A stretch of 21,424 bases of DNA. Source: a virus. The notes beneath the pieces were generated by a model. The model did not search any database, had not been told where the DNA came from, and saw nothing but the letters and a program-made list of their open reading frames with translations. Made by a program: the position numbers and the translations under genes. The first letter of the stretch is position 1; each line of letters starts with the position of its first letter. The DNA lies in IMG/VR virus record IMGVR_UViG_3300047510_000343, positions 1 to 21,424 of that record. The stretch is one strand, 5' to 3'. Positions 5,806 through 8,838 of the stretch are shown in pieces.

Positions 5806-6159
5806 GTGACGACAATCTCTGCCGCTGATACCAAAAAGAAACGCCGTTCGTCGGTAAGTCCTACTCAAAGGTCTTTAGCTGCGCTTCGTGAGCGTGGTTA
5901 CTTATGTCAGATCGTCGAGCACTGGAACCCTTGGGCCAGGATCAGGCAGGACTTATTTGGGATAGGTGACATCCTCTGTCTCAAAGACGAGGAGACGCTT
6001 TTAGTTCAGACGACCTCAAGAGGTAACGTCTCGGCCAGGGTGAAGAAGATTGCAGAATGCGAACACCTTCCGGCTATCTTGCGAGCAGGATGGAAGATCG
6101 AGGTGCATGGATGGGGTAAGTTAAAAGAAGGCTGGACTTGCAAGGTTGTGGAGATCTGA
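5806..6159 (+). CDS. PD-(D/E)XK nuclease-like small phage protein
   Basis: This 117-residue protein starts at GTG 5806, with no visible Shine-Dalgarno. It has a basic N-terminus (DTKKKRRSS), then SLAALRERGYLCQIVEHWNP and RIRQDLFGIGDILCL followed by ETLLVQTTSRGNVSARVKKI. The arrangement, with an Asp after a Gly-rich turn and a beta strand ending VQT, resembles the core of Holliday-junction-resolvase-like endonucleases, with Gln-x-Thr in place of Glu-x-Lys. It could be a degenerate or variant nuclease, or a DNA-binding relative. It is divergent from the recombination operon, and its last codons overlap a promoter for the RNA downstream. Confidence 0.65.
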   Translation: MTTISAADTKKKRRSSVSPTQRSLAALRERGYLCQIVEHWNPWARIRQDLFGIGDILCLKDEETLLVQTTSRGNVSARVKKIAECEHLPAILRAGWKIEVHGWGKLKEGWTCKVVEI

Positions 6160-6165
6160 TATAGT
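6138..6165 (+). promoter_or_regulatory. sigma70-like promoter reading into the structured RNA
   Basis: TTGCAA (6138-6143) and TATAGT (6160-6165) are separated by 16 bases, a near-consensus -10 and a partial -35. The -35 lies in the last codons of the upstream gene, and transcription would start near 6172, just before the base-paired region. Confidence 0.5.
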
Positions 6166-6171
6166 TGGTTT

Positions 6172-6272
6172 GTCTGTGTGGTAGCAGATTGAGCCGTTAG
6201 GAATGTGCCCTGTCCCTTTTCTCCTGAAGGGAACTACCACCAGGGTACATCCTTAACGGCTTTTTCTTTTTC
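6172..6272 (+). ncRNA. candidate structured phage RNA with possible pseudoknot
   Basis: This roughly 100-base segment has no good reading frame but a striking fold. Bases 6192-6212 pair with 6241-6261 over 21 positions (18 Watson-Crick, 2 G-U, 1 A-C mismatch). Inside, TCCCTT (6213-6218) pairs with AAGGGA (6227-6232). The remaining loop CTACCAC (6234-6240) is perfectly complementary to GTGGTAG at 6178-6184, before the stem, so a pseudoknot or switching pairing is possible. A promoter lies upstream and a T-rich tract follows. It could be a small regulatory RNA, a cis-acting leader or an elaborate terminator. I do not recognise a known RNA class. Confidence 0.55.
6192..6272 (+). terminator. intrinsic terminator formed by the long hairpin
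   Basis: The 21-position stem ends AACGGCT and continues directly into a T-rich run (TTTTTCTTTTTCT from 6261). This is a canonical rho-independent terminator placement, although the stem and internal loop are far longer than needed. It ends transcription from the 5806 gene and from the internal promoter. Confidence 0.75.
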
Positions 6273-6541
6273 TACCAGACCGTACTCCGAGCGTTATTAA
6301 GAACCTGCATGGGTTGCGCGGAAGTAAACACCGGCTGGCGATACACCCCGTTTCATGCCGATCCAGACTGTCAGTGAGGTACTGGACAAAGCCTCTTGTA
6401 CATGGGTGGGACAAGCAAGAGGTGGAGAGAATCGCTGGCTTCGGCTACGCTAGGCAAGGAACATCCAGAAGTGACCCTTGCGGGGCGGAGGTGGCTGCCA
6501 CCCTTGGGGAAGTTATGTCTAAAGGAAAGAAAAGTAGAAGA
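6273..6541. other. gene-free segment with several short hairpins
   Basis: Between the terminator and the next promoter I see no gene with a start site and protein-like composition. Frames here are short or have shadow-like composition. Several short inverted repeats follow one another on the plus strand: CCTCTTG 6392-6398 with CAAGAGG 6416-6422; TGGC-TTCG-GCTA 6436-6447, which has a UUCG tetraloop; GCAAGG 6454-6459 with CCTTGC 6476-6481; and GGTGG 6490-6494 with CCACC 6498-6502. This may be a second structured RNA, an origin or packaging-related DNA, or chance pairing; I cannot decide. Confidence 0.4.
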
Positions 6542-6570
6542 TTGTCAACAAGACGACAGTCAACAATAAA
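6542..6570 (+). promoter_or_regulatory. probable promoter of the plus-strand early operon, with direct repeat
   Basis: TTGTCA (6542-6547) and AATAAA (6565-6570) are 17 bases apart, upstream of the 6613 gene. The 8-base repeat GTCAACAA occurs at 6544-6551 and 6559-6566, start to start 15 bases, lying over the promoter like a possible operator. The segment is clearly more AT-rich than its surroundings. Confidence 0.45.
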
Positions 6571-6612
6571 AATAAGGTTTACATTGAGATTTCCTAACAA
6601 CAGGAGAAAACA

Positions 6613-6975
6613 ATGTTCGAGGAGTTCTGGAGCAAATACCCAAGAAAGGTCGCTAAACGTGCTGCACAAAAAGCATGGGCCAAACTATCACCACAAGAGC
6701 AAAAGTCTGCTGTAGAGGCTTTGGTGACGCATAACAAGTATTACCAGGTGAAGGGTACGGGACAGGAGTTCATCCCGCATCCTGCGACCTGGTTGAACCA
6801 GGGAAGATGGGAAGATGAGTTAGAGATCGCACCTGCACAAGAAAAGGTTGTTGTGTGGTGGGCTACAGAAAAAGGTACTGCTGAGATGGCAGCGAAAGTA
6901 AATTGTCCTGCTAGACCAGGAGAGGACTGGAACTCTTGGAAGGCAAGGATCTCTGAAAAGTTGAGGGCAGCATGA
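6613..6975 (+). CDS. replication-protein-like C-terminal domain protein
   Basis: This 120-residue protein starts at ATG 6613 with AGGAG six bases upstream. FEEFWSKYPRKVAKRAAQKA followed by AWAKLSPQEQKS and GQEFIPHPATWLNQGRWEDE is the module usually found at the C-terminus of phage replisome organisers and O-like replication initiators. Here it stands alone, without the DNA-binding N-terminal domain, and is followed by a 45-residue tail with SWKARISEKLRAA. It may help load replication proteins; in its family it is not enzymatic. It is the first gene of an operon running to 8782. Confidence 0.75.
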   Translation: MFEEFWSKYPRKVAKRAAQKAWAKLSPQEQKSAVEALVTHNKYYQVKGTGQEFIPHPATWLNQGRWEDELEIAPAQEKVVVWWATEKGTAEMAAKVNCPARPGEDWNSWKARISEKLRAA

Positions 6976-8782: not shown

Positions 8783-8838
8783 AAGCTGACTCCTTCCCCT
8801 CCTTTGCCCGACGCGACGTTGGGCGTTTTTTTGTATGA
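8779..8838 (+). CDS. possible 19-residue leader peptide spanning the terminator
   Basis: A short frame starts at ATG 8779, overlapping the previous stop as ATGA, crosses the entire terminator hairpin, and stops at TGA 8836-8838, overlapping the glycosyltransferase start at 8835, again as ATGA. It would encode MKADSFPSFARRDVGRFFV. A ribosome translating it would cover the hairpin and could be handed on to the next gene, which has no Shine-Dalgarno of its own. This is a coordinate observation; translation is inferred. Confidence 0.4.
   Translation: MKADSFPSFARRDVGRFFV
8806..8832 (+). terminator. intrinsic terminator between early operon and glycosyltransferases
   Basis: GCCCGACG (8806-8813) pairs with CGTTGGGC (8817-8824) across a three-base loop, followed by G and seven T (8826-8832). 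It ends two bases before the next start codon. Confidence 0.85.

Follow-up and report, generated by a model that had tools for sequence, protein, structure and literature searches.

The phage DNA analyzed here, an IMG/VR record of 21,424 bases that we refer to as the window, contains a promoter-proximal RNA element of ~95 nt (6170–6271, plus strand) in which the loop of a 5′ hairpin is perfectly complementary over 7 bp to a bulge in the 3′ half of a long terminator hairpin. We regard the existence of this RNA gene, and of its kissing fold, as close to certain. From the sequences we propose that the element is a kissing-loop leader-terminator, which would yield a stable short RNA and gate the transcript of a modular phage noncoding RNA. 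We place the probability of this functional reading at about 0.55.

Architecture of the element and its genomic setting

All the parts of the element lie on the plus strand. A putative sigma-70-type promoter at 6138–6165 comprises TTGCAA (6138–6143) and TATAGT (6160–6165) separated by 16 nt, the latter preceded by an extended –10 (TGA). From the promoter spacing the transcript is predicted to start close to the 5′ side of P1, the 5′ hairpin at 6172–6189, in which UCUG (6173–6176) pairs with CAGA (6185–6188) and whose loop presents the first strand of the kissing helix, GUGGUAG (6178–6184). There follows the long stem of the terminator, formed by a 5′ arm at 6192–6212 and a 3′ arm at 6241–6261. 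Its two helices, P2 (6192–6201/6252–6261) and P3 (6203–6212/6241–6250), are separated by a 1 × 1 A–C mismatch (6202/6251) that is the only one in the stem. The stem is capped by the apical hairpin P4 (6213–6232, with pairs 6213–6217/6228–6232), four of whose five pairs exhibit two-sided changes within the clade of the window. The bulge strand CUACCAC (6234–6240), the partner of the P1 loop, precedes the 3′ arm, and the stem runs into the U-tract of an intrinsic terminator at 6261–6271. Within P1 there are one or two nucleotides on the 5′ side of the kissing strand and none on its 3′ side; such spacing is expected in pseudoknots and kissing loops if a loop helix of 7–8 bp stacks on P1. The element is present as a single copy in the window, with no tandem repeats found when up to three mismatches were allowed.

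The calculated minimum free energy is –47.7 kcal/mol (z = –6.4), a value equaled by none of 200 shuffled sequences, and folding of the opposite strand is weaker (z = –4.3). The first-pass annotation had described the long stem, the inner hairpin, the complementarity of GTGGTAG and CTACCAC and the T-rich tract just as we find them, and its promoter pair agrees with the sequence base for base. Taken alone the promoter is not above chance, with 12 matches of such quality in the window compared with 17.9 expected; we accept it as real because relatives with unrelated upstream DNA also have a promoter there.

The promoter overlaps the 3′ end of an ORF of 117 aa (5806–6159, +), a neighbor that lies outside the RNA and has no match in Pfam or PHROGs. 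The next gene (6613–6975, +) encodes a replication-initiation-like protein of 120 aa (phrog_270, E = 1e-19). The ~340 bases that lie after the element (6272–6612) either do not code for protein or do so doubtfully, and they make up a further conserved, structured region, so that the initial description of a genome otherwise wasting almost no space does not hold here. Elsewhere the window encodes SU10-type portal and major capsid proteins and, on the minus strand, a Sak annealing protein and a YqaJ/RecE-like exonuclease. Among cultured phages its terminase is nearest to that of Methylophilales phage Venkman (61% identity), followed by the pelagiphage HTVC010P group. No tRNA or tmRNA was found in the window.

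Two further features of the window may be mentioned. A strong hairpin resembling a terminator, with seven T nucleotides and distinct from the element, is located at 8805–8831 (+), before the gene at 8835. The sequence GACGACARTC occurs at just two sites (5808–5817 and 6552–6561; 0.07 expected), one where the divergent region begins and the other before the replication gene, beside two GTCAACAA repeats. This may be an operator; 39 loci retain the second motif.

Conservation, mobility and covariation

How widespread is the element? Relatives are present in hundreds of metagenomic phage contigs. With the 117-aa ORF (3′ end at 6159) as query, 80 contigs were retrieved; about half of them have the element 3′ of the ORF, in three sequence clades, and the rest have unrelated sequence there. 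In many of the close relatives (L017, L028, L069 and others) the place of the element is taken by GTTTCACCGCATTGGCTAGGGTAGCTCCCGAAAAGC..., which runs directly into a different gene. Two pattern-based scans retrieved 59 and 47 contigs, many with unrelated genes both upstream and downstream. The element is therefore a movable unit, and not an extension of the ORF. Relatives sharing the upstream gene keep TTGCAA (TTGTAA in some) and TA..AT/TATAGT, and where the upstream DNA is unrelated a TTGAC-type promoter occupies the corresponding position. The pattern TTGAC-N16–20-NANNNT was found in 52 of 85 distinct upstream stretches, concentrated 33–39 nt before P1, compared with 9 of 425 controls. At the other end of the element, 84 of 85 distinct, independently anchored relatives retain the U-tract, taken as four or more consecutive T.

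Two copies were found in bacterial contigs, one betaproteobacterial and the other from a Comamonadaceae MAG. A covariance-model search of 399 genomes of the order to which this MAG belongs gave a single match, the MAG contig already found, leaving 398 without; thus the element appears to be phage-borne and rare in assembled bacterial genomes. In blastn searches with the element and the downstream RNA as queries, cultured phages and plasmids yielded no real homologue, the matches of one search being short similarities to the terminator stem only.

Covariation was analyzed in 24 divergent IMG/VR copies of clades B and C (alignment A2), and separately in clade A, which holds the window. In alignment A2 97.4% of the cells are paired, compared with 33–54% in slid controls, and two-sided changes occur at 17 of 37 pairs. 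A two-sided change is found in 105 cells against 33.8 in shuffles. In the kissing helix six of the eight pairs have changed on both sides, with up to four types per pair (AU/CG/UA/GC at one of them), which none of 500 shuffles equals. Comparison with shuffles overstates the significance somewhat because the copies are related. Clade A is 99.4% paired with fewer changes, being less diverged, and a single pair of its kissing helix (UA/AU/CG) is two-sided. Moreover, a model of clades B and C built without the window's clade recognizes the element of the window with 38.4 bits (E = 1e-7). The first-pass annotation had named a lack of compensatory changes in related phages as one refutation of its claim. 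Such changes are found, and strongly so; with the fold and the promoters they support its proposal of a free-standing structured RNA that has a promoter, a long stem, a pseudoknot and a terminator of its own.

The loop and the bulge are matched within each copy. Over 61 distinct copies the mean match is 7.9 bp in cis and 4.2 bp between copies, and in 60 of the 61 a loop matches its own bulge by at least 6 bp. Such within-copy complementarity fits equally well with pairing between identical molecules, generating rings or chains in the manner of the phi29 pRNA, whose loops pair between molecules on the packaging motor. Against this, the lengths of the linker and the stem appear to allow pairing in cis, the phages are not phi29-like given their SU10-type portal and capsid, and there is no match in Rfam, including that of the phi29 pRNA model to the window; we regard intermolecular pairing as the least probable of the readings considered here. 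The variable loop could also serve as the specificity element of an antisense RNA of the C4 or OOP type, directed at a phage or host target. Yet the loop is complementary to the RNA's own bulge, and in a comparison that covers phage DNA the complementarity does not go beyond shuffled expectation. In the own phage DNA of the window and of six relatives (L143, L147, L250, L162, L193 and L207) the longest matches are 11 nt, as for shuffled elements. No phage target outside the RNA, as would characterize a C4-type antisense RNA, thus emerged, and the earlier suggestion of a regulatory RNA is, in its antisense sense, very improbable.

Downstream RNAs and a proposed mechanism

What follows the element? 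Usually it is a second, larger noncoding RNA, a feature that the first-pass annotation had missed. In the window, alignment with relatives reveals such a region (6280–6519, +, with approximate bounds), which we term type ii. It begins with a CGUACUCCGAGCG hairpin that is common to other downstream RNAs, and its first ~55 nt, made up of a CGNACTCCNNNCG hairpin and one further short hairpin, recur in another kind, type i. These larger structured phage RNAs, of ~220 nt (type i) and ~240 nt (type ii), are absent from Rfam; a larger downstream RNA is seen in L179, L180, L282, L300, L328 and some 120 other loci. Type i is closed by GGAAG..CUUUGGG. Two-sided changes affect 11 of its 42 predicted pairs, and its G–U pairs place it on the strand of the element. 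Folded as single sequences, most downstream regions do no better than shuffled ones, so that their status as RNAs rests on alignment. Among 147 elements of the three clades, 115 are followed by the ACTCC hairpin of a downstream RNA and the remaining 32 by other sequence, and in two loci (L303 and L360) the downstream RNA is present and the element not recognizable. The median distance from U-tract to downstream RNA is 16 nt, which leaves little room for a promoter and points to readthrough.

Some type i RNAs contain a long tRNA-like insert (L275, L276, L193, L293, L303, L304, L316, L319 and L328), an example being GATGATGGTGTAGCTCAG...GGTTCGAAGCCAGCCACCATCATC in L293; ARAGORN called no tRNA in these inserts. 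In L328 an array of six phage tRNA genes (2343–2864, –) lies directly upstream of the promoter of the element and type i unit. In the IMG/VR viral contig L194 the element is directly followed by a Betaproteobacteria-1 RNA (RF02932; 2483–2599, –; 93.4 bits).

Using type i as an independent anchor we find elements upstream of it that have an entirely different sequence and the same plan, with more than 60 different kissing sequences. A mechanical parser, the lowest-scoring parses of which are unreliable, identified a kissing element upstream of type i in 109 of 126 loci compared with 24 of 312 control stretches. The element family is recognized by a P1 loop complementary to the 3′ bulge, a long basal stem and a U-tract; this architecture is common to the clades, and the sequence is not conserved between them. 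We tentatively suggest, at somewhat less than even odds, that these RNAs belong to a leader-RNA superfamily in phages united by architecture and not by sequence. In such a superfamily a kissing-loop pseudoknot inside an intrinsic terminator would gate modular, undescribed structured noncoding RNAs, some with tRNA-like inserts, as an RNA-only two-part system.

Sequence comparison shows the fold with its kissing helix, as well as the promoter and the U-tract, and it links the element to the downstream RNA. In the mechanism that we propose for the leader-terminator, the sigma-70 promoter would start transcription at the foot of P1, and the first ~95 nt would form a compact module, the P1 loop being paired to the bulge in the 3′ half of the long terminator hairpin. 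Most polymerases would stop at the U-tract in vivo, giving a stable self-terminated short RNA, and readthrough would generate the second, larger noncoding RNA starting ~10–20 nt later. This readthrough may be regulated, and the kissing contact would set the stability or the termination efficiency, or be a protein-binding fold. The first-pass annotation had raised the possibility of a switch with alternative pairing controlling termination, which we reject. The kissing strands are the loop and the bulge, both of which stay free once the terminator stem has formed, so that kissing helix and terminator stem coexist and do not compete. More likely the kissing helix pre-orders or stabilizes the hairpin, or creates a fold for binding protein. 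No Q- or N-like antiterminator was recognized among the window genes tested.

Alternatively the ~95-nt RNA might itself be functional, as a trans-acting small RNA or as a decoy for a host protein (RNA chaperone, ribonuclease or RNA polymerase), the downstream RNA being a separate product or a neighbor. It is a self-contained unit of promoter and terminator that has moved between unrelated upstream contexts; the invariant stem of clades B and C (TTACTCATGC / GCAGYAGTAA) could be a protein site, and the U-tail is like that carried by Hfq-bound small RNAs. However, a lone small RNA would not need the strong linkage to the downstream RNA, and it is the architecture alone, and not the sequence, that is conserved between clades. 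We consider this reading rather unlikely. Fixed order and short spacing are also what would be found if the element were the 5′ part of a single long folded RNA that includes the downstream RNA, with a ‘terminator’ that is mostly read through or cleaved. The tRNA-like inserts in some downstream copies are reminiscent of large ornate phage RNAs, and in L277 (reverse strand, just upstream of a type i RNA) the kissing helix is intact and the U-tract replaced (CACTAGTAACC), so that termination is not universal. Yet selection would not be expected to keep a U-tract internally, as it has in all but one of 85 copies, and the single long RNA is distinctly improbable.

Known systems and the significance of the element

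Neither at the gathering score nor at E ≤ 10 did Rfam 15 give a match over the element in the window or in the relatives examined, nor was there one for the type i RNA, and a literature search found no description of the element. As far as these searches show, the element family is undescribed. Its kind is known, as structured phage RNA and leader terminator; the kissing-loop variant is new.

The pR′ leader (6S RNA) and tR′ terminator of phage lambda have the same layout of promoter, short constitutive RNA, intrinsic terminator and readthrough transcript, and here too a promoter lies directly upstream with an intrinsic terminator within ~200 nt. In lambda readthrough leads into the late protein genes, and the protein Q acts at the DNA near the promoter. 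Lambda has no kissing pseudoknot there, whereas in the present case a noncoding RNA follows and no Q is recognized. Another phage RNA, put of HK022, renders RNA polymerase resistant to terminators in cis. In type III toxin–antitoxin systems (ToxIN) a pseudoknotted RNA is followed by a leaky terminator, and the partner is made by readthrough. That order is similar to the one proposed here, but neither tandem RNA repeats nor a toxin gene accompany the element, the next gene being replication-initiation-like. C4 antisense RNA (P1/P7) and phi29 pRNA are small phage RNAs with functional loop pairings, to which the element is alike in these respects but from a different phage type. GOLLD and ROOL are structured phage RNAs of unknown function, often near tRNAs and sometimes with a tRNA inside (PMC12286853). 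The present RNAs are likewise phage-encoded and structured, and the tRNA array of L328 adjoins an element unit, but GOLLD and ROOL are much longer at 600–800 nt and neither has an Rfam match here. Betaproteobacteria-1 RNA is the downstream partner in L194 and not the element, and the window has another partner type.

The element is thus a noncoding-RNA unit outside Rfam that is kept by a widespread group of uncultured phages, and behind it stands a further family of phage RNAs, larger and likewise unlisted. Through L194 it also links the orphan Rfam family Betaproteobacteria-1 to phages. The conserved kissing pairing provides exact compensatory mutants for testing, and given that the architecture has been conserved while the sequence was rewritten, the fold itself is likely to be the functional part.
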